Positions 14,081 through 63,637 of a stretch of 64,000 bases of DNA are shown one piece after another. The notes under the pieces are model-generated. The model saw only the letters and a list, made by a program, of their open reading frames with translations. It searched no databases and was not told the DNA's origin. The stretch's first letter is position 1, and each line of letters starts with the position of its first letter. Made by a program: the position numbers and the translations under genes. Origin of the DNA: Amaricoccus macauensis (GTDB taxonomy: Bacteria > Pseudomonadota > Alphaproteobacteria > Rhodobacterales > Rhodobacteraceae); NCBI RefSeq assembly GCF_014201905.1, contig NZ_JACHFM010000007.1, positions 1 to 64,000 of the forward strand. The letters run 5' to 3'.

Positions 14081-14142
14081 GCATGTCTGCAGTCCGTGTT
14101 GGTCCATGCCGGTGCATCGACCAACACGGACTGCAGACATGC
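14081..14142. repeat. Dispersed long-hairpin element, copy A
   Basis: A 24-bp perfect inverted repeat: arms 14081-14104 and 14119-14142, with core TGTCTGCAGTCCGTGTTGG. The 14-base loop CATGCCGGTGCATC can itself pair (ATGC/GCAT). It lies between the convergent esterase and FAD-oxidoreductase genes, 5 bases from the stop of the latter. Related copies are at 34757, 54375 and 63580. Confidence 0.9.
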
Positions 14143-14147
14143 CCCGG

Positions 14148-15266
14148 CTACCCTTCGAGCAGCCCCACGCCCGCCTCGGCGATGGCGAGCGAGGAGGTGA
14201 GGCCCGGGCTCTCGATGCCGTAGAGGTTCAGGAGCCCCGGCAGCCCGTGGGTCTCCGGCCCCTCGATGGTGAAGTCCGTCGCCGCCCCGCCCGCGGGCGC
14301 GAGCTTCGGCCGGATCCCGGTATAGTCGGGCGAGAGCGCGCCATCCTGAAGCGTCGGCCAGTAGCGGCGGATCGCGGCATAGAACCCGTCGCCCCGCCGC
14401 GGGTCGAGACTGTAGTCGATGCCCTCGATCCACTCGGTGTCGGGGCCGAACTTGCCCTTGCCGCCCATGTCGATCGTCAGGTGCACCCCGAGCCCGTCGC
14501 GCTCGGGGATCGGATAGATCAGATGGTCGAAGGGCACCCGGCCCGAGACGCTGAAGTAGTTGCCCTTGCAGTAGAAGACTTCGCGGCGGAACGGCGGAAC
14601 AAGCCCGTCGATCGCAGCACCCGCCTCGCCGGCGAAGAGCCCGGCGGCGTTGACGAGGATCGAGGTCTCGAGCGTCACCCGCTCCGCCCGCCCGGCGGGG
14701 CCACTCTCGGCCTCCACCACGAAGCCGCCGGCGCCGGGCCGCGCGGCGATGAAGCGGGTCTCGAGCGCGATCGCGCCGCCCGCGTCCTCGATCTCGCCCT
14801 GAAGGCTCAGCATCAGCGCATGGCTGTCGATGATGCCGGTCGAGCCGGAGAGCAGTCCGGCACTCGCCCGGAGCGCGGGCTCCATGGCGGCGAGGTCCGC
14901 CCGGGAGAGCGGGCGCATCGCCTCGACGCCGTTGCCGTCCGCCGCCGCGGCGATGCCGGCGAGCGCGCCCTCCTGTTCGGGCTCGGTCGCGACGATGATC
15001 TTGCCGATCCGCCGGTGCGGCACGCCGCGGCTCGCGGCGTAGTCGTAGAGCATCCGCCGGCCGCGCACGCAGAGCGCCGCCTTCACCGAGCCCTTCGGAT
15101 AGTAGATCCCGGCGTGGATCACCTCGGAATTGCGCGCGCTCGTGTGGCTGCCGATCAGCCGCTCGCGCTCGAGGACGATGACCTCGCGGCCCGACTGCGC
15201 CAGCGCCCGCGCGACGGCGAGACCGATGACGCCCGCCCCCACCACGATCGCATCCGTCCGCTCCAT
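14148..15266 (-). CDS. FAD-dependent oxidoreductase, L-2-hydroxyglutarate-dehydrogenase-like
   Basis: 372 aa from the ATG at 15266; the long open frame upstream is not coding. FAD motif VVGAGVIGLAVARAL (about residues 8-22), then ERERLIGSHTSARNSEVIHAG, where the NSEVIHAGIYYP signature is characteristic of LhgO-like members of the DAO superfamily. The C-terminal LYGIESPGLTSSLAIAE is also typical. It would oxidise a 2-hydroxy acid using FAD. Its role in an EPS locus is unclear: it might recycle 2-hydroxyglutarate or act on a sugar acid. It is divergent from rfbC across 246 bases that hold a palindrome at 15373. Confidence 0.88.
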   Translation of the reverse strand: MERTDAIVVGAGVIGLAVARALAQSGREVIVLERERLIGSHTSARNSEVIHAGIYYPKGSVKAALCVRGRRMLYDYAASRGVPHRRIGKIIVATEPEQEGALAGIAAAADGNGVEAMRPLSRADLAAMEPALRASAGLLSGSTGIIDSHALMLSLQGEIEDAGGAIALETRFIAARPGAGGFVVEAESGPAGRAERVTLETSILVNAAGLFAGEAGAAIDGLVPPFRREVFYCKGNYFSVSGRVPFDHLIYPIPERDGLGVHLTIDMGGKGKFGPDTEWIEGIDYSLDPRRGDGFYAAIRRYWPTLQDGALSPDYTGIRPKLAPAGGAATDFTIEGPETHGLPGLLNLYGIESPGLTSSLAIAEAGVGLLEG

Positions 15267-15372
15267 GCACCGCCCCCGCCCGTTCCGTCCGCCCGTTCCG
15301 TCCAGGAGCCTCTCTGCCCCGCTTCGGGCGCGGGGTCCAGCCCACCGTAAACCGGTGGTATTATCCCGCGCG

Positions 15373-15385
15373 ATATCAATGATAT
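15373..15385. promoter_or_regulatory. Palindrome in the rfbC/FAD-oxidoreductase divergent region
   Basis: ATATCA-A-TGATAT, a perfect 13-base palindrome with a central A. It lies in the relatively AT-rich part of the divergent intergenic region, 107 bases upstream of the FAD gene and 127 upstream of rfbC. It could be an operator or promoter element. Confidence 0.35.
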
Positions 15386-15512
15386 GCTCCGGATCGTCCC
15401 TATCGGATTCGCCTCGGCGCATTCCCCCGCGACCTGTCCGGGGGGCTTCTATCCCGGCAGTTCCCGAGATAGTCTCCGCCGTTCCCGACTTGTCTGCTTG
15501 CCCGGAGTTTCC

Positions 15513-16052
15513 ATGCGTTTCCTGCCCACCACCCTCAAGGACGCGGTCCTGATCGAGCCCGAGCGCCGGGAGGATCCGCGCGGCTGGTTCGCCCGCACCT
15601 TCTGCGAGGACGAGTTCGCCGCGGCGGGGCTCAAGACCCGTTTCGTGCAGCAGAACGCCAGCCAGAACCCGAAGGCGGGCACGCTGCGCGGCATGCACTA
15701 CCAGAACGCCCCCCATGCCGAGGTGAAGGTGGTCCGCTGCACCCGTGGCGCGCTCTTCGATGCCATCGTCGACCTGCGCCCCGACTCGCCGACCCGGGGC
15801 AAGTGGGAGGGTTTCGAGCTCACCGCGGAGAACGGCCGGATGCTCTACGTGCCGGAGGGCTTCGGCCACGGCTACCTGACGCTTCAGGACGACACCGAGG
15901 CGGCCTATCTCGTCTCCTATCCCTACACCCCCGGCGCCGAGGGCGGCCTGCGCTACGACGACCCGGCCTTCGGCATCGCGTGGCCGCGCGACATCGCGGT
16001 CATCTCCGACAAGGACGCCGCCTGGCCGGCATTCGGCCAGCCGGCCGGCTGA
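15513..16052 (+). CDS. rfbC: dTDP-4-dehydrorhamnose 3,5-epimerase
   Basis: 179 aa, normal for RmlC/RfbC. GGAG lies about 6 bases before the ATG. Family motifs are clear: EDPRGWFARTF, RGMHYQNAPHAEVKVVRC with the catalytic His, DAIVDLRPDSPT, and VPEGFGHGYLTLQ. It converts dTDP-4-keto-6-deoxyglucose to the L-lyxo isomer for rhamnose, or a CDP/dTDP 4-keto sugar by context. rfbA, rfbB and rfbD are absent from the window, so they must lie elsewhere or this enzyme serves the rfbF pathway. A two-domain glycosyltransferase gene follows after 26 bases. Confidence 0.93.
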   Translation: MRFLPTTLKDAVLIEPERREDPRGWFARTFCEDEFAAAGLKTRFVQQNASQNPKAGTLRGMHYQNAPHAEVKVVRCTRGALFDAIVDLRPDSPTRGKWEGFELTAENGRMLYVPEGFGHGYLTLQDDTEAAYLVSYPYTPGAEGGLRYDDPAFGIAWPRDIAVISDKDAAWPAFGQPAG

Positions 16053-16078
16053 ACGTGCCCGAAGGGGGAAAGCAGGAC

Positions 16079-18394
16079 ATGCCCGCGGACGCCGCTCCGG
16101 GAACCTCCGCCACGGCCTCCGGCACGGCCGAGCCGCGGAAGCCCGCCGCCGCCCCGGTGCTGCCCCAGATCGGGGCGCCACCGGGCCGGAGCATCTTTCG
16201 CCGTGCGGCCGGCTTCCTGCGGCGCCGGGCGGTCGGTGCCGGCACGAAAGGGCTCGCGCGCCTGCGCCGGGCCTCGACCGCTGCCCGGCTCCAGGCCGAG
16301 GCGCGGTTGCAGGCCGCGGCCCTCGCCCGGCCCGAGCTTTTCCTCCGCCCGCTCGGCACCGCCCGCCGTCTCTGGCCGAACCGGCTCGATCTCGCCCAGG
16401 CCGAGGCGCTGCTCACCGCCCGTGCCCGGGGCTGGGCAGCGGCCGCACCGCTTTTCGCCCGCATCGGTGACCCCGAGGCACCGGTGCTCGCCGGCCAGCC
16501 TGCGGCCGGCCTGCTGCGCGCCGGCAGCTCGACGACCGCCGGCCCCCTCGCCATTCCGGCGGACGACCGCCCGGGCAGCCTGCCGCCGGCACACGCCCGC
16601 GACATCGTCGTCGTCACCGCCATCGTCGGCCGGCAGCGCCCGCTCCTGCCGGTGTTCGGCGCACCCGAGGGCCTGCGGCTCGTCTGCTTCACCGACCAGC
16701 CGCTCGCCGCCGCGCCGGGCTGGCAGGGCCTGCCGCTGCCGCCGCTGCCCGCCGATGCGCTGGCGGACGCGGACGTGACAGCGGTCGCCGGCGCCGGATT
16801 GTCCGAGGCCGAGATCGAGGCCGAGGCCTGGGCCGCCTGGCTGAAGATCCGCACCCCCGAGGCGCTCGCCGCCGCCGGGATCGAGGCCGAAGCCTCGCTC
16901 TGGGTCGATCCCGACTGCTGGCTGGTGGGCAACCTCGACACCCTCTTCACCCGCTGGCTGCTCGGCCAGGAACTGGTGCTCTGGCGCCACCCGTCGAACG
17001 ACTGGCGCGACATGGCCGAGCGGCACCTGCTCTCGGGCGCCCTGCCCTCCCAGGGCGTGCTCGCCCAGGCCGGGCGGCTCGCCATGGACAAGATCCCCGG
17101 TGGCCGTGGCGCCTGCGACACCGGCATGGTCTGGCGCCGGCACACCGCCCCGGGCCTGCCGGCGCTCACCGAGGCCTGGTGGCAGGCCTGGGCGGCGGCG
17201 CCCGGCCCCGACGATCTCGCGCTCTACCGCGCCCTGAACGATCCGGCCGCGCCGCTCGATCCCGCGGTGCCGGGCGAGCGGCCGTCGATCCTGCCGGCGC
17301 GGCTCGGAGCGGCCTCCGACAACATCTTCACCGTCCGCACCGAGCGCCGGCCAGTCCGCGGGGCCGAGACGCGCCCGGCGCTGCCCGCGCCCACTCCGCC
17401 CGAGACTCTGGCCGGGACTCTGGCCGAGACTCCGCCCCAGACTCTGGCCCAGACTCTGGCCGTGACTTCAGCCGCTACCCCGCCCGGCACCCGGATCTCC
17501 GGCCGCACGCAGCCGCTCGTCTTCCTCTCCGCCGCGGCGCATGCCAATTCCGCCTCGACGCTGCTGCGCGGCCACCAGCTCTCCGGCCTCATCGCGGCCG
17601 CCTTCCCCGACCGCTACACCGTCGCCTTCACCGAGAATGCCCGGGCGGTCGAGGATGCGGTGGTGCTGCTCACCAAGGGCGCCATGGCGACGCTGAAGCC
17701 GGACGAGATCATCGACCTCCGCCGGCGCAACCGCGCCCTGGTCGGCGCCTGGGACGACATCCGCCCCGACCCGCGCAAGGCGCGGCTGGTGGACGCCACC
17801 ATGACGCTGTCGCACCGCCAGACCGTCGAGCTGAACCGGCTCTATCCCGATACCCCGAGCTTTCTCGTCACCCACCACGTGAACACCCAGGTGCAGGCGA
17901 TGGCGCGGGGGATGATGCCGCCCGTCGACCGGCTCCGCACCGGCTACTTCGGCGATCTCGAGAACACCGTGCGCCCGGCGCCGCTCGCACCCCTGGTGGA
18001 ACTCGTCGGCATCGACACCCGCAACGTCGAGAGCGGCAGCTCCTGGATCGACACCCTGCCCCGCTTCAACTGCCACTGGATCGTGCGGCGCGCCCGGCCC
18101 TGGGATGGCTGGAAGCCGTTCCTGAAGGGCTTCGTCGCCGCCCACTGCCATTCGGTGGTCATCACCACCGCCGACGATGGCGATGCGCCCTACTATCTCG
18201 GCGACGATTATCCGTTCTACGCCGCGAGCCTCGGGGCCGGCGATCTCGAGACGGCACTGCACGAGACCGCCTCGGCCTTTGGCGGCCCGGAGTGGCACCT
18301 TGCCCTCGAGATCATGGCCGAGGTGGCGGCCCGTTCCACCGATGCGCAGGTGGCCGAGGAATTCCGCCTGATGATCGACGAGGTGACCGGCTGA
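16079..18394 (+). CDS. Two-domain glycosyltransferase-like protein
   Basis: 771 aa from ATG at 16079. The N-terminal 150 residues are Ala/Arg-rich. Domain 1 (about 170-440) begins DIVVVTAIVGRQRPLLP and contains WLKIRTPEALAAAG and SLWVDPDCWLVGNLDTLF, resembling the DUF616/TOD1 glycosyltransferase-like family. A linker of repeated ETLAxTLA units (about 440-475) is encoded by a short tandem repeat at 17403-17465. Domain 2 (about 480-771) has LVFLSAAAHANSASTLLRGHQ and TMTLSHRQTVELNRLYPDTPSFLVTHH split across its length and is not a named family to me. It probably transfers two sugars, or one sugar and one other group, to the EPS unit. Confidence 0.7.
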   Translation: MPADAAPGTSATASGTAEPRKPAAAPVLPQIGAPPGRSIFRRAAGFLRRRAVGAGTKGLARLRRASTAARLQAEARLQAAALARPELFLRPLGTARRLWPNRLDLAQAEALLTARARGWAAAAPLFARIGDPEAPVLAGQPAAGLLRAGSSTTAGPLAIPADDRPGSLPPAHARDIVVVTAIVGRQRPLLPVFGAPEGLRLVCFTDQPLAAAPGWQGLPLPPLPADALADADVTAVAGAGLSEAEIEAEAWAAWLKIRTPEALAAAGIEAEASLWVDPDCWLVGNLDTLFTRWLLGQELVLWRHPSNDWRDMAERHLLSGALPSQGVLAQAGRLAMDKIPGGRGACDTGMVWRRHTAPGLPALTEAWWQAWAAAPGPDDLALYRALNDPAAPLDPAVPGERPSILPARLGAASDNIFTVRTERRPVRGAETRPALPAPTPPETLAGTLAETPPQTLAQTLAVTSAATPPGTRISGRTQPLVFLSAAAHANSASTLLRGHQLSGLIAAAFPDRYTVAFTENARAVEDAVVLLTKGAMATLKPDEIIDLRRRNRALVGAWDDIRPDPRKARLVDATMTLSHRQTVELNRLYPDTPSFLVTHHVNTQVQAMARGMMPPVDRLRTGYFGDLENTVRPAPLAPLVELVGIDTRNVESGSSWIDTLPRFNCHWIVRRARPWDGWKPFLKGFVAAHCHSVVITTADDGDAPYYLGDDYPFYAASLGAGDLETALHETASAFGGPEWHLALEIMAEVAARSTDAQVAEEFRLMIDEVTG
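17403..17465 (+). repeat. In-frame tandem repeat in the two-domain glycosyltransferase
   Basis: Units based on GACTCTGGCC recur about every 12 bases and encode ETLAGTLAETPPQTLAQTLA-like linker between the two domains. Copy number could change without loss of frame only in multiples of three bases. Confidence 0.7.
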
Positions 18395-18424
18395 ACACTG
18401 GCCGGCGTATGAGGTATCCCCAGC

Positions 18425-19447
18425 ATGACGAGTCCGAGGCCGAACCCTGGTTCCCCTCCCGGAAGCTCCTTCCCCGGAAATTCCCCCGTGAACACAGAAA
18501 CCACCGCTGAAAGCACTGAAAGCACGGCTGAAAGCACGGCCGGCAACGCCTACGTGCTGATGACCGCGGCCTACAACGAGGCGCGGTTCCTGCCGGCGAC
18601 GATCGAGTCGGTGGCGGCGCAGAGCGTGCTGCCCGCCCTCTGGATCATCGTGAGCGACAGCTCGACCGACGAGACCGACGACATCGCCCGCGAGGCCGCG
18701 GCGCGCCACGGCTTCATCCGCTTCCTGCGCCACGAGGACCGCCGGCCCTCGCCCGCGCCCATGGGCGGCACCGCCTGGAAGAAGGTGACCGCGCTCCGGG
18801 CCGGGCTCGCGGCCTTCGGCGCCGAGGCCCCCGACACGCCCTATCTCGGCAACATCGACGGCGACGTCACCTTCGCCCCGGAGTTCTACGCCAGCCTCAT
18901 GGCGCGCATGGCGAAGGACCCGGGCCTCGGGCTCGCGGGCGGCTTCATCTACCATTCGAGCGAGGGCCGCGAATGGCCCTACATCACCAGCGCCGACGGG
19001 GTGGGCGGCCCGATCCAGTTCTTCCGCCGCGCCGCCTGGGACGCGGTCGGCGGCTATATCCCCTGGGGGCAGGAGGATTCCATCGTGCAGATGGCGCTGC
19101 GCATGCACGGCTGGAAGATCCGCTCCTTCCCCGACCTCCGGGTCGGCCACCACAAGACCCCGAAGGAAAAGAAGAAGAACCCGCTGCGCGGCCGCTTCCA
19201 CACCGGCATGATGGAGCGGGCGATGCGCTACCACCCGGTGTTCGAGGCGGCGAAATGCGCCGCCACGATCACCCGCCGGCCGGTGGTGCTCGGCGGCGCG
19301 GCGCAGCTCGCGGGCTTCGCCTGGGCGGCATGGAAGGGCGTGCCCTCGCAGCTCCCGGACGATCTCGTCACCTTCTCCCAGACCGAGCAGATGGCAAAGC
19401 TCCGCCGGCAGATCGGCCTCGGGAGCCGCCGATCCGGCCGGGCTTGA
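18425..19447 (+). CDS. GT2-family glycosyltransferase
   Basis: 340 aa. After a low-complexity Thr/Glu/Ser start (short tandem repeats at 18511-18540) the GT-A fold begins at YVLMTAAYNEARFLPATIES. DSSTDETDDIA and a GNIDGDVTFAPEFY metal-binding site (DxD-like) follow. The acceptor side shows GGPIQFFRRAAWDAVGGY and WGQEDSIVQMALRMHGWK. This fits a cytosolic inverting GT2 enzyme adding one sugar to the lipid-linked EPS unit. It begins 30 bases after the preceding gene and is the last gene of this plus-strand group; a hairpin at 19454 separates it from a convergent sulfotransferase. Confidence 0.88.
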   Translation: MTSPRPNPGSPPGSSFPGNSPVNTETTAESTESTAESTAGNAYVLMTAAYNEARFLPATIESVAAQSVLPALWIIVSDSSTDETDDIAREAAARHGFIRFLRHEDRRPSPAPMGGTAWKKVTALRAGLAAFGAEAPDTPYLGNIDGDVTFAPEFYASLMARMAKDPGLGLAGGFIYHSSEGREWPYITSADGVGGPIQFFRRAAWDAVGGYIPWGQEDSIVQMALRMHGWKIRSFPDLRVGHHKTPKEKKKNPLRGRFHTGMMERAMRYHPVFEAAKCAATITRRPVVLGGAAQLAGFAWAAWKGVPSQLPDDLVTFSQTEQMAKLRRQIGLGSRRSGRA

Positions 19448-19453
19448 CCATCG

Positions 19454-19483
19454 GGCTGATATCCGCCCCGATGGATATCAGCC
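19454..19483. terminator. Bidirectional hairpin between convergent genes
   Basis: GGCTGATATCC (19454-19464) and GGATATCAGCC (19473-19483) form an 11-bp perfect stem with an 8-base loop. It lies 7 bases after the GT2 stop and 54 bases from the sulfotransferase stop. Confidence 0.65.
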
Positions 19484-19537
19484 GCTCCCGATCCCTCGAT
19501 TGCCCCGGAAGGGCTGACGCCACCGAGGCGGGTGCGG

Positions 19538-20197
19538 CTATTGCTGTCGCCGGATGTCGGGCGGGGTATCGGGTGGGCAGGTTGCCGGTGCCGCGGTGCC
19601 GCGGAACCTGCGCCAGATCTTCTTCAGCCGGTCGCGCAGCGCCGGGGGCAGGAAGTCGTAGTGGCGGTGGTTGGAATGCGGAAACGGCACCGCCGGGACC
19701 GGCTTGCCGAGGAAGCCGCAGATCTGCTCCCAGCCCGGCGCCCTGGTGACGTCGATGACCAGGAGATCGTCCGGGCGGTCGCGGAAATAGGCGCGCACCT
19801 CATCGTTGTGCCGGCGCATCCGTCCCTTGTAGAACTCCGCGCCCTCGGGATGCGCCGCCGCGGGGCCGTAGATGAGTTCAGCCATCGGCGTGCGGGTGAG
19901 CCCGTCGAAGTGGTTGCCGAAACTGTTGTACCACTTCTGCTCGTCGCGGATCGTCAGGATGAACTTCGAGCCCGGATGGAGCGCGTCCATCTCGCGGTAG
20001 ACCAGCGGCCAGGGATTGTCCTGAAACGCATCGTAGCGTTCTGACAGCGCGACGGTGAGCGGCCCGAGGATCCGCGCGAGGTTCTTGCTGTCCACCCCGT
20101 TCGGTCCGGTGACCCGGTAGCCGAGTTCGGTCAGGACATGCATCATCGTCGTGGTGCCGGTCTTGTGAAAGCCGATGCAGAAGACCTTCCCGCTCAT
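19538..20197 (-). CDS. Sulfotransferase-family protein
   Basis: 219 aa. The PAPS phosphosulfate-binding loop is CIGFHKTGTTTMMHVL near residue 7, and the 3-prime phosphate site is KFILTIRDEQKWYNSF near residue 100. Proteins of this short type (Sulfotransfer_4-like) transfer sulfate from PAPS to a hydroxyl. By context the acceptor is the EPS or a glycolipid intermediate. The Arg-rich C-terminus may be membrane-peripheral. Last gene of the minus-strand operon that starts with the polymerase at 27389; 42 bases separate it from the preceding sulfotransferase gene. PAPS-synthesis genes are not in the window. Confidence 0.85.
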   Translation of the reverse strand: MSGKVFCIGFHKTGTTTMMHVLTELGYRVTGPNGVDSKNLARILGPLTVALSERYDAFQDNPWPLVYREMDALHPGSKFILTIRDEQKWYNSFGNHFDGLTRTPMAELIYGPAAAHPEGAEFYKGRMRRHNDEVRAYFRDRPDDLLVIDVTRAPGWEQICGFLGKPVPAVPFPHSNHRHYDFLPPALRDRLKKIWRRFRGTAAPATCPPDTPPDIRRQQ

Positions 20198-20239
20198 TTT
20201 TCCCCCCGCGCCCCTACCCTGCGCCGCTTGTCCTGGCCG

Positions 20240-21115
20240 CTATCCTGCTGGTGCGAGCGCCCCCGGCACTGGCCTGCGCCTCGTCATCTGCCCGCCCGCA
20301 TCCACGTGGAAGCCGAAGATCCGGTCCGAGAGCCGGCGGACCTCGGCGTCCTCGAACAGCGGCCGCGAGGCGGCGTGGGTGAGCACGTGCTGCCAGCGGG
20401 AGTCGACCGCGAGGCTCCTGCCGTCCACCGGCGTGGCGAAGAGCCGGGCGACATAGCTGCCCGGCGCCTTCATGAAGCGCTCGCGGAAGATGCGCGAGCG
20501 GTAGTAGGCCTGCTTGCCCAGCATGGCGCGCCAGGTGGGCCGGCCGTAGCCGTCGAACGAACTGCCGCCGCCTTCGCTCCGCACCTCGCGCAGGGTGCGC
20601 TCGGAATAGGTGCCGCCGAGCCGGGCGCAGACCGCCTCGCGGTAAGCCCGGCTGCCGTGCCAGGCGTTGTAGAGCAGCACCGTCTCGGGCGCGCGCTCGG
20701 CGATCCGGGCGATGTCGAGCCAGTCGCGCCGGAAGTCCTCGAGCCGCGGCGAGGACGAGAGCTTGCCGCCTTCGCGCGCCTTCACCCGGCTCGCCCAGCA
20801 ATTGTAGGGGTCGCGCAGGATGTAGAGCACGTGGCAGTCGTGGCCGGGGAAGTCCACCGGATCGAGCCGGCGGACGTTCGCGACCAGCGCCTCGCCCTGC
20901 AGCTTGCTCACCCCGACCGCGTCCTCGAAGGAGACGATGACGCAATCGCTTCGCCCGAGCGCCGCGCGGGTCGAGACCACGCTCTCGGCATCCTCGAAGA
21001 AGCCGTGCGGCTGTTCGTTCAGGTGGGTCGAGCGCGGAAAGAGCGACTCGAGCCAGTTGATGATGGCATGGTTGCCGGAGCGCTGCACTCCGACGATCTG
21101 AAGCAGGGTGGCCAT
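20240..21115 (-). CDS. Sulfotransferase-like P-loop protein
   Basis: 291 aa from ATG at 21115, two bases after the GMC stop at 21118. The loop LQIVGVQRSGNHAIINWL (residues 5-22) matches the PAPS-binding P-loop layout, and CHVLYILRDPYNCWASRV (about 93-110) matches the second PAPS site. The body has Arg/Lys-rich stretches usual for acidic polysaccharide binding. It likely sulfates a sugar of the EPS. The near-overlap with the GMC gene suggests that oxidation and sulfation are functionally linked. Sequence similarity to the neighbour at 19538 is low, so the two probably have different acceptor positions. Confidence 0.8.
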   Translation of the reverse strand: MATLLQIVGVQRSGNHAIINWLESLFPRSTHLNEQPHGFFEDAESVVSTRAALGRSDCVIVSFEDAVGVSKLQGEALVANVRRLDPVDFPGHDCHVLYILRDPYNCWASRVKAREGGKLSSSPRLEDFRRDWLDIARIAERAPETVLLYNAWHGSRAYREAVCARLGGTYSERTLREVRSEGGGSSFDGYGRPTWRAMLGKQAYYRSRIFRERFMKAPGSYVARLFATPVDGRSLAVDSRWQHVLTHAASRPLFEDAEVRRLSDRIFGFHVDAGGQMTRRRPVPGALAPAG

Positions 21116-21117
21116 CG

Positions 21118-22859: not shown

Positions 22860-22976
22860 GCGAAACCTCGGAACAGACTGGCCGGCAATATCTTTCTGCC
22901 GGGAGGGGGGATTGAAGTCAAGAAAACGTTATCTGCAGAGTAATCCCTGGAATTTACCAGGTATGTCTGGCCACCA

Positions 22977-34756: not shown

Positions 34757-34864
34757 ATGTCTGCACTCCGTGTTGGCCAGTGGATCCGGCCAGTGGATCC
34801 GGCCAGTGGATCCGGCCAGTGGATCCCGGATGCATCGGCATCGACCAACACGGAGTGCCGACAT
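34757..34864. repeat. Dispersed long-hairpin element, copy B with tandem-repeat loop
   Basis: Arms 34757-34776 and 34845-34864 (core TGTCTGCACTCCGTGTTGG) pair with one mismatch. The loop holds four direct copies of GGCCAGTGGATCC (34775-34826) in place of the short loop of copies A and D, then CGGATGCATCGGCATC. It follows the stop of the 731-aa gene by 63 bases. Confidence 0.88.
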
Positions 34865-45632: not shown

Positions 45633-45722
45633 GGAGAGGTGGCCGAGTGGTCGAAGGCGCACGCCTGGAAAGTGTGTAGGCGGGGAACCGTCTCGAGGGT
45701 TCGAATCCCTCTCTCTCCGCCA
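45633..45722 (+). tRNA. tRNA-Ser (anticodon GGA)
   Basis: A 90-base gene including encoded CCA. Acceptor GGAGAGG pairs with TCTCTCC; the D arm is GCCGAGTGGTCGAAGGC; the anticodon stem CACGC/GTGTG carries loop CTGGAAA (anticodon GGA). A long variable arm (TAGGCGGGGAACCGTCT) and T arm GAGGGTTCGAATCCCTC follow. It reads UCC/UCU. It is unusual on a RepA-type replicon. Confidence 0.95.
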
Positions 45723-52265: not shown

Positions 52266-52272
52266 GTCCGCC

Positions 52273-54248: not shown

Positions 54249-54578
54249 CGGCACGGGCTGAGGGCACGGGCTGGAGGGCAGGCCCCCCCGGAGCGGCAGG
54301 TGGCCGCCCGCGTGCGCGCCTCTCCCACATCCCCCCCGGGAGTTCGTCCCGGTGTTCATCCCCCCGGGCTCTCCGATGTCTGCAGTCCGTGTTGGTCTCC
54401 GCCCGGCGACCCCCGGTCTGCGGGCACGGTGTCAGCGGAACTCCGGGGGGCGGTTGCGTTGACCAACACGGACTGCAGACATCGCCCCTTGCGAAAAGCC
54501 GAAAGGCGGACCCCTCGGCCCGCCTTGTCCATTGCGATCAGGTCTCTGCGCCGGGCGAGCTGTCCGGGCCGGACAGCC
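54249..54578. other. 330-base convergent intergenic region holding hairpin copy C
   Basis: Lies between the Alg13-like gene (plus) and the sugar transferase gene (minus). Apart from the long hairpin at 54375-54483 it contains only short direct repeats of GGGCACGGGCTG near the 5 prime end. No open frame of convincing type. Confidence 0.5.
54375..54483. repeat. Dispersed long-hairpin element, copy C
   Basis: A 23-bp perfect inverted repeat: arms 54375-54397 and 54461-54483 (core TGTCTGCAGTCCGTGTTGG) around a 63-base loop unrelated to the loops of A, B or D. It carries the G/C version of the variable arm position, as in copy A. Confidence 0.9.
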
Positions 54579-55268: not shown

Positions 55269-55785
55269 GTCACCCACGCAAATCCACACCACGACCACGC
55301 ACCTGACCGGATGCACGCGCCTGCGCCTCAAGCGATCCCGTGCGGAATTGCCCTGCGACCAGCTCGTTCACTTTCCCGGCAGGCGTCCCTCCAAATTGAA
55401 TCAGATTTGGGTGAGTCACCCCCCTCACCGCGGCCCATTAAGCCATCCTTTACCACCAAACTCAATCAAATTTAATTGACGCCTTAATGACTTGGCTGGT
55501 GATCACCGGTCCCGGACGACTGCCGGACGGCAAAATCCCCACCAAATCAGGGGCGAGGCTGTCAGAGGCCATGTCGAGCGGCCTTTCCGGGGGGCGACAA
55601 TCCTGCAACGGCGTCGAAAATTCCTGCAAATACGGGATCGGACCGCTGGCTTCACCTTTTTGGGGGATGATATGACCTGAGGAAGCCTGTATGAGAAAGG
55701 TCTGTGCCGGGGTGGGCGGTCAGTCGCGCGCCCCTACAAGTGTTTTTGGTGAATGCCCCGATTTTGGGGCCGGGTGGATGGGTGC
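55269..55785. promoter_or_regulatory. 517-base divergent promoter region with operators
   Basis: CCAAAT (55391-55396) and ATTTGG (55405-55410) form an inverted repeat, immediately followed by the palindrome GGGTGA-G-TCACCC (55409-55421). AT-rich DNA extends to about 55490. It should carry promoters for both the sugar transferase and the ATPase-Wzz-kinase operon. No gene is convincing here. Confidence 0.45.
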
Positions 55786-56631
55786 ATGAGTACGCTCAGG
55801 ATCTACAACGAGCATTTCGGGCTGACCGAACGGCCGTTCACGCTCCTTCCCGACCCGGATTTTCTCTATTGGTCGGACAGTCATTCCCGGGCCTACACCA
55901 TGCTGGAATACGGCATGCTGACCCATGCGCCGATCACGGTGATCACCGGCGAGATCGGCGCGGGCAAGACGACGCTCCTGCGCCATCTGCTGCGGACGCT
56001 GCCCGAGGAGTTCACCGTCGGGCTGATCTCGAACGCGCAGGGCAACCGGGGCGAGCTGCTGCACTGGGTGCTGATGGCGCTCGGGGTGCAGACCGATGGC
56101 TCCGCGACCTATGTACAGCTCTTCGCCCAGTTCCAGGATTTCCTCATCGAGGAGTATGCCGCCGGCCGGCGGACGATGCTGATCTTCGATGAGGCGCAGA
56201 ACCTCTCCGTCGAGACCCTCGAGGAACTCCGGATGTTCTCCAACATCAACGCCGACAAGGACGAGCTCATCCAGCTCGTGCTCGTCGGCCAGCCGGAGCT
56301 GCGGGATCTGATCGCCCAGCCGCGCCTCGTGCAGTTCGCGCAGCGTGTGGCGGCGGAGTATCACCTGCCGGCGATGCCGGCCGACTCGGTATCGGCCTAC
56401 ATCAATCACCGGCTGAAGATCGCGGGCGCCACCCGGGAGATCTTCACGCCGGCGGCCTGCGAGTGCGTGCACCTCGCCTCGAAGGGCGTGCCGCGGCTCA
56501 TCAACCAGATCTGCGACTACGGGCTGGTCTATGCCTTCACCGACGGGCTCGACACGGTGGATGCGGGCGTGATCGAGCAGGTGGTGACCGACCGCCGGCG
56601 TCACGGCAACCTTAAGATGGTAGCGGGCTGA
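55786..56631 (+). CDS. AAA ATPase of EPS/XrtA-associated type
   Basis: 281 aa. Opens YNEHFGLTERPFTLLPDPDF, the hallmark of ExeA/GspA-like ATPases found in exosortase-linked EPS loci, then HSRAYTMLEYGMLTHAP. Walker A TGEIGAGKTTLLRHLL (about residues 52-67), Walker B MLIFDEAQNL and sensor LVLVGQPELRDL. C-terminal helices hold SKGVPRLINQICDYGLV. It may sense or power EPS assembly; the partners are not known for certain. It precedes the Wzz-like gene by 64 bases. No exosortase or PEP-CTERM protein was seen in the window. Confidence 0.85.
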   Translation: MSTLRIYNEHFGLTERPFTLLPDPDFLYWSDSHSRAYTMLEYGMLTHAPITVITGEIGAGKTTLLRHLLRTLPEEFTVGLISNAQGNRGELLHWVLMALGVQTDGSATYVQLFAQFQDFLIEEYAAGRRTMLIFDEAQNLSVETLEELRMFSNINADKDELIQLVLVGQPELRDLIAQPRLVQFAQRVAAEYHLPAMPADSVSAYINHRLKIAGATREIFTPAACECVHLASKGVPRLINQICDYGLVYAFTDGLDTVDAGVIEQVVTDRRRHGNLKMVAG

Positions 56632-56695
56632 TTTCCGGAACCTGCGGTGCCATCGGCGGCCGCGGGGACCGGAACCCGGAAGATTTCGCGAAGGG

Positions 56696-58255
56696 ATGAA
56701 CGAGGGGATGCTGGGGAATTTCGACATCAAGTACGCATGGGCGGTGTTCAAGCGCCGGATGCCGTATTTTCTGGTGATCACCACGCTCTTTGCGGCGGTC
56801 GCCACCACCATCGCCTATGTCCTGCCGCCGGTCTACCAGTCCTCGGCGAGCCTGCTCGTCGAGCCGCAGCAGATCTCGGACACCACCGTGGCTGCCCCGG
56901 TCAATCCCTACGAGCAGATCCAGATCATCGAGCAGCGGCTGATGACGCGGGCCAATCTCTACGACATGGCCGGGCGCATCGGCCTCTACGCCGACCAGCC
57001 CGATCTTTCGGCCGGCGAGATCATCGGCGACATGAAGACCCGGATCGAGTTCATCGGCTTCCAGCCCGACCCGACGACGAAGCCGGGCGAGCCGGGGGCG
57101 ACGATCATCGGCGTCAACTTCTTCGCGCCGACCCCGCCGCTCGCCACCAAGGGAGCGAACGAGCTCGTCTCGATCATCCTGCAGGAAAACACCCGGATGC
57201 GCACCGACCGGGCGAGCGATACCCTCGACTTCTTCAAGGGCGAGGTGACGCGGCTGACCGGCGAGATCGAGACCCAGTCGAAGAAGATCGCCGACTTCAA
57301 GACCGCGAACATCCAGGCGCTGCCCGACAGCCAGGATTCCCGCCGCGCCCAGCAGGAGCGCGGCCAGCAGCGGCTGCTCGACCTCGACCGCGAGGAAGCC
57401 TCGCTGAAGAGCCAGCGCGCCTCGATCGTCTGGGTGTTCGAGCGCACCGGCCGCGCCTCGGCGAACATGGCGCTCAGCCCCGAGGAAGAGGAACTGCAGA
57501 CCCTGCAGAGCCAGCTCCTGCAGCAGCAGGCGATCTACAAGTCGACGAGCCCGCAGATCCGCGTGCTGCAGACCCGCATCGCCGCGCTGAAGCAGCTCGT
57601 GGAGCAGCAGCAGGCCGACCGCGCCGTGCCCTCGGCCGATGGCACGGCGGGCAAGCCGCTCTCCGAGCTCGACGTCGAGCTTGCGCCGCTCGACCAGCGG
57701 CTGGGCGACATCGCCGCGGAGCGCGGCCTGCTCGAGAAGCAGCTCGCCGACCTCGACACCGCCCAGCAGGCGACGCCGCAGAACGAGATGGTGCTGAACG
57801 ACCTCGAGCGGCAGCTCCAGAGCCTGCAGACCCAGTACACCAACGCGGTCAGCTCCCTCGGCCAGGCGCAGCAGGGCGAGAAGATCGAGGTGATGTCCAA
57901 GGGCCAGCGCTTCACCCTGATCGAGGCGCCGTTCGACAGGAACGTGCCCGTGAGCCCGCAGCGGGTGCTGATCTCCGCCGCCGGCCTCGTGGGCGGCCTC
58001 GGCGCGGCGCTCGGCTTCGTCGTGCTCTGGGAAATGCTGAACCGCTCGATCCGCCGGCCGGTGGAACTGAGCCAGCGCCTCGGGATCCAGCCGATCATCA
58101 CCATTCCCTACATCCGCACCGCCGGCGAGCGTCGCTGGCGCCGATGGGCGGTGGTGGGCGCGATGCTGCTGATCATCGTGGCGATCCCGGTCATTCTGCT
58201 GATGATCCACACCTACTACGAGCCGCTGGACCAGCTGATCCCGGGCCTCGGCTAG
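56696..58255 (+). CDS. Wzz/GumC-like polysaccharide co-polymerase
   Basis: 519 aa. Two membrane segments, about residues 25-43 (FLVITTLFAAVATTIAYVL) and 475-497 (VVGAMLLIIVAIPVILLMI), flank a large periplasmic coiled-coil region (about 180-390, rich in Gln/Glu/Leu, LQTLQSQLLQQQAIYKS). A further hydrophobic stretch near 425-445 (ISAAGLVGGLGAALGFVVLW) may be a third helix. The N-terminal Wzz domain has PPVYQSSASLLVEPQQIS. It sets chain length and links polymerase to exporter. The cytosolic kinase partner is the next gene, as usual for PCP-2a systems with a split BY-kinase. Confidence 0.9.
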   Translation: MNEGMLGNFDIKYAWAVFKRRMPYFLVITTLFAAVATTIAYVLPPVYQSSASLLVEPQQISDTTVAAPVNPYEQIQIIEQRLMTRANLYDMAGRIGLYADQPDLSAGEIIGDMKTRIEFIGFQPDPTTKPGEPGATIIGVNFFAPTPPLATKGANELVSIILQENTRMRTDRASDTLDFFKGEVTRLTGEIETQSKKIADFKTANIQALPDSQDSRRAQQERGQQRLLDLDREEASLKSQRASIVWVFERTGRASANMALSPEEEELQTLQSQLLQQQAIYKSTSPQIRVLQTRIAALKQLVEQQQADRAVPSADGTAGKPLSELDVELAPLDQRLGDIAAERGLLEKQLADLDTAQQATPQNEMVLNDLERQLQSLQTQYTNAVSSLGQAQQGEKIEVMSKGQRFTLIEAPFDRNVPVSPQRVLISAAGLVGGLGAALGFVVLWEMLNRSIRRPVELSQRLGIQPIITIPYIRTAGERRWRRWAVVGAMLLIIVAIPVILLMIHTYYEPLDQLIPGLG

Positions 58256-58411
58256 GAAGCCCGGACAGGGAACAGAGGCCGGCCCACCGAGCGCGTGGAC
58301 CGGCGGCCCGAAGCGGAGGATACTTGCCGGTCACGGCAGGGAGCGACGGGCGAGACTTGAGAACGTGACCTTGGTCCGGCTGGGGCCGGCAGCGGGGGAA
58401 GACGAGAAAGC

Positions 58412-59239
58412 ATGGAACGCATTCAGGCTGCCATCCAGAAGGCCAAGGAACAGCGCGGCGAGGCAGTGCCCGGCGCCGGCATGGGAGCGGGCGTGGGCGG
58501 AGGCCTGACGCGCGGCACGGTGCGGCCGGCGCCGACCGGGCCGCTCTGGCCCGAGCTGGCCGCCTTCGAGCCCGATCAGGGCGCGCTCCGGCGCCACCAC
58601 ATCGTCACCATCGCCGACGTCGATCCGGCGGCGAGCCATTTCGACATCCTGCGCACCAAGATCCTCAGGACCATGCGGCGCAACAACTGGGTGTCGCTCG
58701 GCATCACCTCGCCGACCGCGGGCTGCGGCAAGACGACGATGACCACGAACATCGCCTTCAGCCTGGCGCAGCAGCCGGAAGTGAAGACGGTGCTGGTCGA
58801 CCTCGACCTGCGCCGTCCGGCGATCGCGCGGATGATCGGGATGAAGTCCGCGGGCTCGCTCGCGCAGTTCCTCCAGGGCCAGCGGTCGCTGCAGGAGAGC
58901 TTCGTGCGCTACGGCGACAACCTCGCGATCGGCGCCAACTCGCAGACGGTGTCGAACTCGGCGGAGCTGCTCATGCAGGCGACGACCTCCGAGAGCGTCG
59001 CGGCGATCAAGCGGGCGTTCCTGCCGACCGTGATCCTCTACGACCTGCCGCCGATGCTGCAGACCGACGACGCCATGGCGTTCCTGCCGCACCTCGACTG
59101 CGTGCTGCTCGTGGCCGGCGCCGAGAAGAGCCGGCTCGACGAGGTCGACAAGTGCGAGAAGGACATCGCCGAGCAGACGAACGTGCTCGGCGTCGCCCTC
59201 AACATGTGCCGCTACACCAGCGAGGAATTCGGCTACTGA
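58412..59239 (+). CDS. BY-kinase-like capsule ATPase (CpsD/CapB family)
   Basis: 275 aa. Walker A SPTAGCGKTTMTTNIAFSL (about residues 110-128), Walker A-prime VLVDLDLRRPAIARMIG and Walker B VILYDLPPMLQTDDAM give the P-loop fold of bacterial tyrosine kinases. The C-terminus CRYTSEEFGY has two Tyr but no longer Tyr cluster, so autophosphorylation may be limited. An N-terminal 50-residue tail is Gly/Ala-rich. It would regulate the Wzz-like partner in the membrane. 156 bases separate the two genes. A GC-rich hairpin at 59314 ends the operon. Confidence 0.87.
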   Translation: MERIQAAIQKAKEQRGEAVPGAGMGAGVGGGLTRGTVRPAPTGPLWPELAAFEPDQGALRRHHIVTIADVDPAASHFDILRTKILRTMRRNNWVSLGITSPTAGCGKTTMTTNIAFSLAQQPEVKTVLVDLDLRRPAIARMIGMKSAGSLAQFLQGQRSLQESFVRYGDNLAIGANSQTVSNSAELLMQATTSESVAAIKRAFLPTVILYDLPPMLQTDDAMAFLPHLDCVLLVAGAEKSRLDEVDKCEKDIAEQTNVLGVALNMCRYTSEEFGY

Positions 59240-59313
59240 GGTCCGCGCGCGACCGGACCCGGCGCTGCCGGGCCCGGTGCCGCCGGATTCAGGTCTGCTG
59301 ATCCTGGTGCTGC

Positions 59314-59334
59314 GGCCCGGGTGTGGCCCGGGCC
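59314..59334. terminator. GC-rich hairpin between convergent genes
   Basis: GGCCCGGG (59314-59321) and CCCGGGCC (59327-59334) form an 8-bp stem with loop TGTGG, between the kinase stop (59239) and the stop of the minus-strand gene (59342). Confidence 0.5.
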
Positions 59335-59341
59335 GGGCCGC

Positions 59342-60445
59342 TCAGACGTACTCGATGACGAGCTCGGGGGCCGCGCCGGCGCCTTCCCAGGCCATCGCGG
59401 CGCGCTGGCCCGAGCCGGTGACGCGGAAGGCGAGCGCATTGAGCGTGTCGATGCCGTTGTCGGCGATCACCGCCTCGATGAGGCTCGAGATGTCGGCGGA
59501 CCTGTAGGTCTCGCCCTTCTGCCAGGCGGTGGCGTTCCAGATCACCTCGTCGTCGAGATAGGCCCGCGCGTCGGGACCCTTCAGCGCCGAGTAGGTGCCG
59601 GGCCGGGTGGCATCCTGCACCTCGATCGCGAGCCGGGCGGTGCCGCTGCTCGTCGCGGTGGCCTCGAAGACGAAGTAGGCGGCCTTGATGTCCGCGTCGC
59701 CGTCGAGGCCGATTCCCTGGAAGCGCAGGCCGACGGACTGGGCGACGCCGCCGATCTTGCCGAGCTCGAGGACCTGGCTCGGGCCGGCCTTCTGCGACTC
59801 GAAGTCGTCGCTGCCAGCCCTGACCGCCACCGAGATGGTTTCGGTCACGGGCTCGGGCTGCTCGGGTTCGGGGGCCGGCCCCGGCTCGAAGCGGCTCGTC
59901 TGGATCACCTGAACCGAGTCGATGTGGTAGCCGATCGAGCGCGGGGCAAAGGTGATGGTGTGCTCGCCCACGCCGAACACCACGGTCGAGGCCGGGTTCT
60001 TGTCGCCCGATGTGTGGGTTGAGAACTGGTGGGCGTTCACCCAGCTGGTCTGGGCGCCCTTGAGCTTCACGAAGCCCTCGCCGCCGGAGGTGAGGGTGGG
60101 CGTGCCCTCGGGCATCGCCGACTGGGTGTCGCCGTCGACCCTGATCCAGATGTCGTTGCGGGCATCGCCGGGATTGTTGGTGTCGCGGGCGGCGCGCAGC
60201 AGGATGCTGTAGGTGCCGGCTTCCTTGATATCGAGGCTGAAGCTGAAGCGGCCTTCCGCCGGCACCGTCTTCAGCGAGCCCTCCGCCGTCTGGCTCTTGT
60301 AGTAGTAATGCGCGCCTTCGGCGTTCCTGTTGCCGACGCCGGGGGCCTGGTAGACCCAGCCGCCGGTCGGGTTCGTGCCGAGCAGGTCCTCGATCTGGAC
60401 CTTCACGCGCCCGTCGACGAGCCCGTATTTCCGCGTCACTGCCAT
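59342..60445 (-). CDS. Secreted-type carbohydrate-binding-like protein, paralog 1
   Basis: 367 aa from ATG at 60445 (MAVTRKYG, matching the start of the paralog). Domain 1 (about 1-190) includes GGWVYQAPGVGNRNAEGAHYY, SILLRAARDTNNPGDARNDI, WIRVDGD and a FVKLKGAQTSWV strand set, a jelly-roll carbohydrate-binding-like pattern. A short Pro/Glu linker follows. Domain 2 (about 225-367) has QSVGLRFQGIGLDGDADIKAAYFVFEA in pieces and ends APELVIEYV, like DNRLRE/disaggregatase-type beta domains. No signal peptide. It probably binds EPS or cell surface after export by an unknown route. Confidence 0.82.
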   Translation of the reverse strand: MAVTRKYGLVDGRVKVQIEDLLGTNPTGGWVYQAPGVGNRNAEGAHYYYKSQTAEGSLKTVPAEGRFSFSLDIKEAGTYSILLRAARDTNNPGDARNDIWIRVDGDTQSAMPEGTPTLTSGGEGFVKLKGAQTSWVNAHQFSTHTSGDKNPASTVVFGVGEHTITFAPRSIGYHIDSVQVIQTSRFEPGPAPEPEQPEPVTETISVAVRAGSDDFESQKAGPSQVLELGKIGGVAQSVGLRFQGIGLDGDADIKAAYFVFEATATSSGTARLAIEVQDATRPGTYSALKGPDARAYLDDEVIWNATAWQKGETYRSADISSLIEAVIADNGIDTLNALAFRVTGSGQRAAMAWEGAGAAPELVIEYV

Positions 60446-60826
60446 CTGACCAGTCCTTTTACACACCACGAGGGTTGCCGGCCCCGGGGGTGCATGCACG
60501 ACGCGCAGGCGGCCGGGCCACGGGGGGAAGCTTCCTCGTGGTGGGGACGCTGCGTGCAGGGCTGGGGCAGGCGGTGCCGAAACCTAGCGAGGGAGCCCGG
60601 ATCCGGGCAGGGGGATAATCGTATCCTGCCGTAAGTCGGCGATTTGTCGCCTATTTCGTGAGGGTTGCCGCAGGGCGCGGAACCTGCGCGCCCTGCGGCG
60701 GACATGCCTTCCCGAGGCTGCCGTCATGGTCTGGCCCCATGATCTGCGCCCATGATCTGGCCACCAGAACCTGGGGCCAGACCATGACCTGATGGGGCAA
60801 CCCGAGGCCCTTTCGGGCCCGGGGGC
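60446..60826. other. 381-base intergenic region between the two paralogs
   Basis: Holds the strong hairpin at 60723-60788 just past the downstream stop of paralog 2, and presumably the promoter of paralog 1 in about 60446-60650. No gene seen. Confidence 0.5.
60723..60788 (-). terminator. Long hairpin after paralog 2
   Basis: GTCATGGTCTGGCCCCA (60723-60739) and TGGGGCCAGACCATGAC (60772-60788) form a 17-bp perfect stem with a 32-base loop, 38 bases past the stop of the 60827 gene. Its sequence is unrelated to the A-D hairpin family. Confidence 0.7.
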
Positions 60827-62068
60827 TCAGGCGTACTCGATGACGAGCTCCGGCGCGTTGTCGCCCTTCGCCTCGAAGGCTTCCGCCACCCGCTCGCCGG
60901 AGCCGCTGACGCGGAAGGCGAGCGCGTCGAGCGCGTCGCTGCCGCCGTCCTCGATCACGTCCCTGATGAGCTCGGAGATGTCGGCGGACTTGTAGGTCTC
61001 GCCCTTCTTCCAGGCCTGGACGTCCCAGTCCACGTCGTCGGCGAGGTAGGCGCGGGCGTCCGGGCCGTTCGCACGCGTGTAGGTGGCGGCGTGGGTGGTG
61101 TCCTCGACCTCGATCTCGAAGTGCGCGGCGCCCTTGCTGGTCTCGGCGGCGGTGAAGACGAAGTAGGCCGCCTTGATCTCGGCGTCCTTGTCGAGCGCGA
61201 CCGCCTTGAAGCGCAGGCCGACCGACTGCTCGCCGGCGCCGTCATGCCCGAACTCGAGGTCCTTGCTGGCAGCCGCCTTGTTCGCCTCGAAGTCGTCGCT
61301 CGCGGCGGCGATCTTCGTCGAGACGACGCCGTCCGCCGCAGCCTTGTCAGCGCCCTTGTCAGCCGTCTTGTCGGCCGCCTTGTCGAGGGCCACCCCGACC
61401 TTGTCGGTGCCCTCGGGCCTGGTCACGGTCTCGGAAAGCTTCTCGACGGCGGTCTTGCCGGTCTCGGCTTCGGTCGCCGCGGCCACCTGGGTGGTGCTGG
61501 CGGTGGTCTTGCTGCCGCCGACCTTGATCACCTGCACCGAGTCGATGTGGTAGCCGGTCGAGCGCGGCGCGAAGGTGATCGAGTGCATCCCCTTGTCGAA
61601 GACCACGGTCGAGGGCGCGTTGCGGTCACCCTCGATCGGCGTCGAGAACTGCTTGGCGTCGATCCAGGAGGTGGTGGCGCCCTTGTACTTCACGAAGCCG
61701 TCGCCGCCGGAGGTGAGCTTGGGCGTGCCCTTCGGCATCACGCTCTGGGTGTTGCCGTCGACCTTGATCCAGATGTCGTTGCGCGCGTCGCCCGGGTTGT
61801 TGGTGTCGCGCGAGGCGCGCAGCAGGATGCTGTACTGCCCGGCCTCGGTGATGTTGAGGTTGAAGCTGAACCGGCCGGCGGCGGGGGCCTGCTTGTGCGA
61901 GCCGTCCGCCGTCTGGCTCTTGTAGTAATAGTGCGCACCCTCGGCGTTCTTGTTGCCGACGCCGGGAGCCTGGTAGACCCAGCCGCCGCCGGGAGTCTTG
62001 CCGAGGAGATCCTCGATCTGCACCTTCACCTTGCCGCCGGTGAGGCCGTAGGTCCTGGTCACTGCCAT
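60827..62068 (-). CDS. Secreted-type carbohydrate-binding-like protein, paralog 2
   Basis: 413 aa from ATG at 62068 (MAVTRTYG). Same two domains as paralog 1, closely similar in both. Domain 1 about 1-190 (GGWVYQAPGVGNKNAEGAHY, SILLRASRDTNNPGDARNDI) and domain 2 about 265-413 (QSVGLRFKAVALDKDAEIK, ending APELVIEYA). The linker is longer and made of repeated DKAADKTADKGADKA units that are likely helical. No signal peptide is seen. The different linkers suggest the two proteins space their domains differently on the same ligand. Confidence 0.82.
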   Translation of the reverse strand: MAVTRTYGLTGGKVKVQIEDLLGKTPGGGWVYQAPGVGNKNAEGAHYYYKSQTADGSHKQAPAAGRFSFNLNITEAGQYSILLRASRDTNNPGDARNDIWIKVDGNTQSVMPKGTPKLTSGGDGFVKYKGATTSWIDAKQFSTPIEGDRNAPSTVVFDKGMHSITFAPRSTGYHIDSVQVIKVGGSKTTASTTQVAAATEAETGKTAVEKLSETVTRPEGTDKVGVALDKAADKTADKGADKAAADGVVSTKIAAASDDFEANKAAASKDLEFGHDGAGEQSVGLRFKAVALDKDAEIKAAYFVFTAAETSKGAAHFEIEVEDTTHAATYTRANGPDARAYLADDVDWDVQAWKKGETYKSADISELIRDVIEDGGSDALDALAFRVSGSGERVAEAFEAKGDNAPELVIEYA

Positions 62069-62688
62069 CGTCACTGTCTCCACTTTTCTTGCGGGAACGC
62101 GCGCGCACGTCCCCGGTCACCGCGCTCCGCCGGGGGTGCGGAGGGGTGTCGTTGCCTTCGGTTTGCTGCCTGACGCTCGCCGCCGGACGACTTTGCCGGC
62201 CCGGGACGTATCTCCCCGAACTCGGGGAGCAGGATGGCGGGATCCGGGGGTGGTTTTAGGGGATGAGGGCGGGAACGGTCACCCAACGATTGTGACGGTT
62301 TGAGACTTCGGCGAGGTTCCGCTCAGAAACGCGCGGAAACATGCAAATGCGCGAGTTGCGCATCCAGTATAAAATATTGATTCCCAACGGGAACGTGTCT
62401 GTTCTTTATCAATTGTCAATTTTGATGGATCGGCTGGTTCGCCGGCTCTCCACCCGCCCGAAAGCCGGTTGCCCCCGCCTGGGCCGCCTGGGCGGGGGGC
62501 TGATCTTGCCCCGAGCCAGGAACCCCGAGTCCGGAAACTGACCGGGGATTCCACCCGGGCTCCGGTGGCACGCTGGCGCAGGCCGGGTCGTCACGGCCGC
62601 CGCGCTGCCGCCGGGCGGCTGGACAGGACCGGGACCGGCCGCGATAACGGCGGGGTTGCTTGGAGAGTGTGATGATCTGGAGTGTACC
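62069..62688. promoter_or_regulatory. 620-base divergent promoter region
   Basis: Contains ATGCGC-5-GCGCAT (62347-62363), a TATAAAATAT stretch (about 62369-62378) and TTCCC-AAC-GGGAA (62381-62393), in an AT-rich island at about 62340-62430. These likely serve promoters for paralog 2 (minus) and the sulfotransferase (plus). No credible gene lies within it. Confidence 0.5.
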
Positions 62689-63549
62689 ATGGGCACGATG
62701 ACCCGCCTGCTGCGCCCGGCGATGGAGGGTGCCCGGCGCCGCCTGCGGCAGATGCAGGACCGGGTGCTGCCCGACTTCGTCATCATCGGCGCGCAGAAGA
62801 GCGGCACCTCGAGCCTTTATCGCTATCTCACCCAGCACCCCCAGGTGCGCGAGAGTTCGGTGAAGGAGGTGCATTACTTCGACGGTGGCCTCGAGGAGGG
62901 GACCGACACCTATACCTTCGGCGAGCGCTGGTATCGCTCGCACTTCCCGCTGGCCTCGGAGATGGCGCCGGGCGTGCAAGCCTACGAGGCCTCGCCCCTC
63001 TACATGCTGCACCCGCTGGTGGCCGGGCGGATGGCGCAGATCCTGCCTCGGGTGAAGCTGGTGGCGATCCTGCGCGATCCCACCGACCGGGCGCTGTCGC
63101 ACTACTTCCACAATGTGCGGAAGAACGCGGTACGCCGCTGCAAGGAGGAGCTTGGCCCCGGCGCGGCGATGGCGGCGGAGGAGGAGCGGCTCGCGCCGGT
63201 GCTGGCGCGGGGCGACTACGGCGACGAGGCGTTCCGGGCCTACAGCTACAAGGCGCGCGGGCGCTACCTCGAGCAGATCGAACGCTACTGGGCGCATTTC
63301 CCGCGGGAGAACCTGCTGGTGCTCCGGGCGGAGGATCTCTTCGAGGATCCGGCCGGGCTCATGGGGGGCCTGTGCGATTTCCTCGGGCTCGACCGGACGA
63401 GGAGCGGGGAAGACTTCCGGCCGGCGAACGTCGGCTCGAACCGCGAGGAGGTGGACCCCGGTGTCCGGGCCGAGCTCGAGGCCTACTTCGCGCCGATGAA
63501 CCAGGCGCTCTACGCGGCCCTCGGGCGGGATTTCGGCTGGCCGGCCTGA
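62689..63549 (+). CDS. Sulfotransferase, heparan-sulfate-sulfotransferase-like
   Basis: 286 aa from ATG at 62689. PAPS loop FVIIGAQKSGTSSLYRYL (about residues 31-48), then HPQVRESSVKEVHYFD, and the second PAPS site VKLVAILRDPTDRALSHYFH (about 123-142). The spacing and the YKARGRYLEQIERYWAHFPRE-like segment match N-/O-heparan sulfate sulfotransferase-like bacterial proteins. This is the clearest sulfotransferase in the window. Hairpin copy D follows 30 bases after its stop. Confidence 0.92.
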   Translation: MGTMTRLLRPAMEGARRRLRQMQDRVLPDFVIIGAQKSGTSSLYRYLTQHPQVRESSVKEVHYFDGGLEEGTDTYTFGERWYRSHFPLASEMAPGVQAYEASPLYMLHPLVAGRMAQILPRVKLVAILRDPTDRALSHYFHNVRKNAVRRCKEELGPGAAMAAEEERLAPVLARGDYGDEAFRAYSYKARGRYLEQIERYWAHFPRENLLVLRAEDLFEDPAGLMGGLCDFLGLDRTRSGEDFRPANVGSNREEVDPGVRAELEAYFAPMNQALYAALGRDFGWPA

Positions 63550-63579
63550 GCCGGGGGGCGGTCGCTCGCCGCCATTTTT

Positions 63580-63637
63580 ATGTCTGCACTCCGTGTTGGT
63601 CCATGCCGATGCATCGACCAACACGGAGTGCAGACAT
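63580..63637. repeat. Dispersed long-hairpin element, copy D
   Basis: A 22-bp perfect inverted repeat: arms 63580-63601 and 63616-63637 (core TGTCTGCACTCCGTGTTGG), loop CATGCCGATGCATC. It carries the C/G version of the variable position, as in copy B. The loop differs from that of copy A at one base. Confidence 0.9.

Follow-up and report, generated by a model that had tools for sequence, protein, structure and literature searches.

What are the long hairpins that recur across this DNA, and how did they come to share their arms? The window (the whole stretch analysed, 64,000 nucleotides) forms the first 64,000 bp of a 99,075-bp contig of Amaricoccus macauensis, and a first-pass annotation had described four such hairpins within it, offering a REP-like mobile palindrome, a structured transcription end, or a protein site used in replicon organisation as candidate explanations. 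The reading we favour, with a probability of about 0.6, is that they are defective, REPIN-like non-autonomous mini-elements, each made of two facing arms that represent the core stretch of the terminal inverted repeat (TIR) found in IS1595 elements, and that they multiplied on a ~99-kb plasmid-like contig. The origin of the hairpins from IS1595 ends is the well-supported part of this reading.

All four hairpins were present where they had been described, as read directly from the sequence, and the window contained eight matches to the arm core (up to three mismatches allowed) against 0.02 expected, a number reached in 0 of 100 shuffles of the window. None of the hairpins is assigned to a strand. 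Hairpin A (14081..14142) has perfect 24-bp arms around a 14-nt loop and contains a 58-bp core unit at 14083-14140; hairpin B (34757..34864) has 20-bp arms with one mismatch; hairpin C (54374..54484) has 24-bp arms around a 63-nt loop unlike the other loops; and hairpin D (63580..63637) has 22-bp arms and a 14-nt loop. Their description as perfect therefore holds for A, C, and D (three of the four), but not for B. DNA folding returned z-scores of -11.5, -6.7, -9.4, and -12.0 for A, B, C, and D, respectively (C was folded from 54375-54483). At one variable position of the arm, N, the base is G in A and C and C in B and D, with both arms of each hairpin alike, just as had been annotated. The loops had been said to differ in length and sequence, but those of A and D are alike bar one base. 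The loop of B (34777-34828) holds four near-copies of CCAGTGGATCCGG.

These four copies belong to a larger family. A contig-wide core search located 22 arms (ATGTCTGCANTCCGTGTTGG), distributed over ten places on the contig that contains the window and comprising eight facing pairs (seven of them short hairpins of 58–108 bp, the eighth a 792-bp pair) and six further arms, two of which lie beside a hairpin, while the other four form two same-direction doublets. Across the 22 cores, with N left out, four bases depart from the consensus, in three arms. One same-direction arm pair, with changed bases, lies at contig 69498-69562, inside a predicted glycosyltransferase-61 gene. In the 4.83-Mb genome searched, the sole further arm is on contig C1; that ten of eleven sites should fall on the window's contig has a chance of ~1 in 10^16, assuming an even spread over the genome. 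Replicon organisation fits this near-confinement to one contig no better than local spread does.

The search of related genomes proposed with the first description found no comparable family in sixty relatives, ten of them of the same genus (core search, ≤2 mismatches), although four of the sixty had one single two-mismatch core match each. A search for short core doublets among 394 family genomes (14–44 bases between cores and no mismatch, so that longer or imperfect doublets are missed) matched this genome alone. The exact arm was found in two stretches of genome_contigs (257 billion bases), against an estimated ~7 expected for 18 fixed bases, and in two stretches of viral_contigs. When hairpin A was compared with plasmids and phages, a 38-bp stretch matched Acinetobacter records at 86.8% (18 plasmids at E 0.003 and two phages at E 0.0009, as listed), a match that we took as unrelated.

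The origin of the arms can be approached through the 792-bp facing pair (contig 74652-75443), which lies beyond the window and has a 222-aa ORF (contig 74734-75402) between its arms, a transposase remnant 10.7 kb past the window end. The best matches of this ORF are IS1595-family transposases. It scored 26.5 bits for the IS1/IS1595 zinc-binding domain, just below the cut-off of 28, and 24 bits against the IS1595 transposase model NF033547 (cut-off 75), where the helix-turn-helix stretch only was matched; four longer relatives scored 94–136 bits across most of the same model. Aligned with five longer relatives (among which L027 and L098 each have one end that looks frame-disturbed), the ORF retains a zinc ribbon and helix-turn-helix and misses two segments, which we take to be where the catalytic (DDE) residues sit. 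The sole transposase-like ORF here thus differs from the IS1595 transposase, which has a DDE core, by being without the catalytic stretches. Its coding signal was weak (-0.11 per codon, against a median of 0.59 and a 10th percentile of 0.38 among our own predicted genes), as might be seen in a gene that is foreign or decaying. At E 1e-8, the ORF had no second relative in this genome, NF033547 had no match in it either (18 contigs, 99% complete), and the 792-bp element with its surrounding DNA had no match among plasmids.

Other loci of relatives of this ORF, 27 in genomes of the same family, connect the arms with IS1595. The core RTGTCN7CGTGTTGG was exact at 18 of them, and each of five control patterns (the reversed core and four mis-spaced versions) at 0/27, for which reason we read the arms as the core of the IS1595 TIR. 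With up to two mismatches, the core was found at 26 loci versus one for the reversed control, and 16 loci had a facing core pair. The IS1595 subgroup with this core shares with the hairpins both the core and its spacing, and a transposase ORF related to those of the subgroup lies between two of the arms here. Whole-genome counts gave no above-background support, which weighs against our preferred reading: the core pattern was present in 41 of 198 family genomes, no commoner than a mis-spaced version one base shorter (62 of 198), and the IS1595 link rests on the 27 loci. In one relative, L027 (258-314), a further core is found immediately beyond the end of an IS1595 element and points away from it.

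A target duplication of 8 bp is usual in the IS1595 family (PMC8101967), and the relatives fit it. Among the 16 facing pairs (the best pair being taken at loci with more than two arms), an 8-base match lay exactly 4 nt outside the core, with identity of 8/8 in 11, 7/8 in two, and 6/8 in one (L022); the exceptions were L164 (8/8 at 3 nt) and L157 (4/8). At the eight facing pairs here and two alternative outer pairs, no 8-bp target duplication was found at offsets 0–8 (best 5/8, chance level). The same source (PMC8101967) states a terminal GG for Merlin elements, related to IS1595. The GG columns outside the core hold 0.0–0.1 bits in our 22 arms versus 1.1–1.4 bits in the relatives (15 hand-picked arms); GG stands at the outer columns in 3 of the 22 arms, and no pair has GG at both ends. 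The hairpins hence differ from IS1595 elements in being without transposase and 8-bp duplication, with the outer GG at background.

If the hairpins were ordinary IS1595 MITEs that an intact transposase, since lost, had moved in trans, and whose duplications and outer ends had decayed, they would have the core in common with IS1595 ends, as was found. Among the relatives there are facing pairs to which the ORF has no tblastn match (533, 543, and 883 bp at L087, L099, and L100, in listed order), and one of these three has a 7/8 duplication; counting L097 with them, two of the four have 7/8 and two have none clear. Neutral decay, however, would hit cores and outer ends alike, and here the cores have kept close to consensus but the outer columns show no more than background; moreover, the units at 63580 and 86522, being identical, seem too young for such decay. 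We regard this history as quite unlikely and, since the relatives' pairs mostly have a target duplication and 0/8 pairs here do, conclude that the hairpins are not ordinary IS1595 MITEs. They resemble bacterial MITEs in being short and non-autonomous, with facing inverted repeats that have IS-family ends, but differ in their size of 58–108 bp, in being mostly stem in the 58-bp copies, in having no target duplication, and in that no parent IS was found in the genome.

The same combination of a kept core with neither the target duplication nor the relatives' outer GG would suit a domesticated system, in which the arms are selected operators, bound but not cut by the truncated 222-aa protein, and this protein serves as a regulator or organiser of a polysaccharide replicon. 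Such a protein would keep its zinc ribbon and helix-turn-helix and forgo its catalytic stretches, as the ORF does, and its gene lies between two sites. We nonetheless hold domestication to be unlikely: the ORF has a weak coding signal, and operator selection does not need 58-bp units that are identical including their loops. Several open frames among the relatives of the ORF are also short.

Turning to the enzymes that might move such repeats, the Y1/RAYT transposase (PF01797) had 0 matches in the same 18 contigs, with a model that matched in 5 of 14 control genomes, and the RAYT gene that the first-pass annotation had thought worth seeking was accordingly not found. Its remark that no transposase or RAYT gene lay near stands as regards Y1/RAYT, but overlooks the transposase remnant between two arms. 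REPINs are described in PMC3116915 as short repeats paired in inverted orientation, with a predicted hairpin fold, which also occur singly, and our eight facing pairs and six other arms are alike in this respect. REPINs, however, go with RAYT, and here the ten sites lie on one contig of a genome with no such match. REP/REPIN elements moved by a RAYT, for all that the inverted doublets, singlets, and tandems resemble REPINs (PMC3116915), are thus highly improbable, as the arm matches IS1595 ends instead. The REP-like mobile palindrome was still the closest of the explanations first offered, given the doublets, the single arms, the location mostly outside predicted genes, and the identical 58-bp units. 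No IS1595-derived hairpin family appeared among the results listed for searches of open-access PMC text.

Shared units among the copies bear on how they may have spread. The 58-bp unit of hairpin D is identical to contig 86522-86579, at an unrelated site, from which we infer that 58-bp units have moved as units. The unit at 14083 (A) departs from those at 63580 and 86522 by a single base in the loop and by the N of each arm. Hairpin B can be read as the 58-bp unit reversed, its loop apparently enlarged by tandem near-copies of CCAGTGGATCCGG. At least some hairpin copies look recent, to judge by sequence, and yet are without target duplication.

The base change at N is real, and it is equal in both arms of 8/8 facing pairs (permutation p 0.00014). 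Counting three shared-loop copies once gives p 0.0014, with B left unmerged; if B counts as a further copy of their unit, there are fewer than eight independent comparisons, a point against our preferred reading. In four of the seven short hairpins, the palindrome also runs at least two bases into the flanks (GC|GC, CG|CG, CA|TG, and AACA|TGTT; p 0.0017 for a feature chosen post hoc). The earlier interpretation was that pairing is kept by matched changes, and selection for pairing is one possible source of them, though the matches are no proof of it. The matched base change may instead stem from homogenisation by template switching. If one arm were copied from its partner by this route, both the matched N and the flank extension could result, whereas insertion into small palindromes would explain the flank extension alone. 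Against template switching, the 792-bp pair is also matched at N although its arms are too distant for easy pairing. Reverse-complement copying can create stems and mend pairing and has been studied in RNA genes (PMC8794818); the likeness lies in this creation and repair of stems, and the difference is that the process, known in RNA genes (PMC8794818), is here proposed for IS-derived DNA repeats.

Relative to our own gene predictions, A, B, C, and D lie 50, 63, 127, and 30 bp, respectively, behind the upstream stop codon. Across the contig, six of the seven short hairpins lie 3–127 bp behind a predicted stop codon, and those at 54376 and 82148 are between convergent predicted genes, as would be expected of bidirectional transcription terminators or 3′-end stabilisers selected at gene ends. 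Such a role is improbable, in our assessment. By eye, no run of five T was seen behind the stems (TGTTTTC follows the copy at 86522), and the terminator scan, which covered the surroundings of hairpin D alone, found stems separate from D, among them a terminator-like stem with T-run at 63557..63578 (+ strand; a consensus match only) that ends just before it. Furthermore, no predicted gene ends in front of the hairpin at 76322, some arms point in the same direction, two of them within a predicted gene, and the family is absent from the ten same-genus genomes. The structured transcription end considered at first therefore receives weak support. One predicted gene overlaps hairpin B, and its start is doubtful.

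According to the mini-element reading that we prefer, the 20–22 bp arm would be the inner, presumably transposase-binding, core of the IS1595 TIR; mini-elements built from it would have multiplied on one plasmid-like contig, where they are now mostly behind or between genes; the 58-bp units would have moved as units, perhaps in the folded state and leaving no target duplication; and the matched arm changes would come from template switching between the two arms. A more specific version, which we put forward tentatively and consider doubtful, is that the core of a DDE-transposon end became a new kind of tiny hairpin that travels within a single replicon in folded form, with sharp ATG...CAT borders, duplication-free, possibly favouring the centres of short palindromes as targets, its arms perhaps still bound by the truncated transposase. 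If the preferred reading is true, a REPIN-like architecture would have arisen from the ends of DDE IS elements, not from Y1/RAYT, almost wholly on one replicon, and matched changes in hairpin arms, often taken as proof of a selected RNA structure, would gain a mutational explanation. If movement of the units does leave no target duplication, its mechanism would still have to be explained. Two further points count against this reading, namely that insertion is inferred with no clean empty site and that no moving enzyme was found in the genome.

Parts of the contig align at ~64–85% identity with contigs of six same-genus genomes, and no clean empty site was found where they align. Hairpin B came nearest, with 302 bases between aligned blocks here versus 92 in genome G006, a gap that would fit added DNA. 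No comparable hairpin families were seen in the same-genus contigs scanned (all of G006:C3 and parts of most others) with perfect arms of at least 14 and loops of up to 90; the list for G010:C69 was filled by N runs and is uninformative, and the repeat scan of G006:C3 took the five longest repeats per piece.

The window's contig carries polysaccharide genes, and two of the same-genus contigs are also ~100 kb, which suggests a polysaccharide plasmid; part of one gene cluster is found on some Rhodobacter, Jannaschia, Palleronia, and other plasmids. The contig termini overlap by 95 bp, and the contig may therefore be a circle, although the ends lie in repeats. An integron attC reading of the hairpins was dropped on the basis of the attC consensus. 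Rfam placed one tRNA on the contig, a tRNA-Ser (GGA) gene at 45633-45722. At contig 86240-87023, a ParD-type antitoxin gene (PF03693) is separated by a hairpin and a further arm from a 117-aa ORF, which occupies the toxin-gene position and had no Pfam match at 0.001. Lastly, a 46-bp stretch at 456-501 is 93.6% identical to an unannotated place on Sinorhizobium megaplasmids, as nine of the matches listed show, and 48 of the 61 matching records in that search are from Sinorhizobium.
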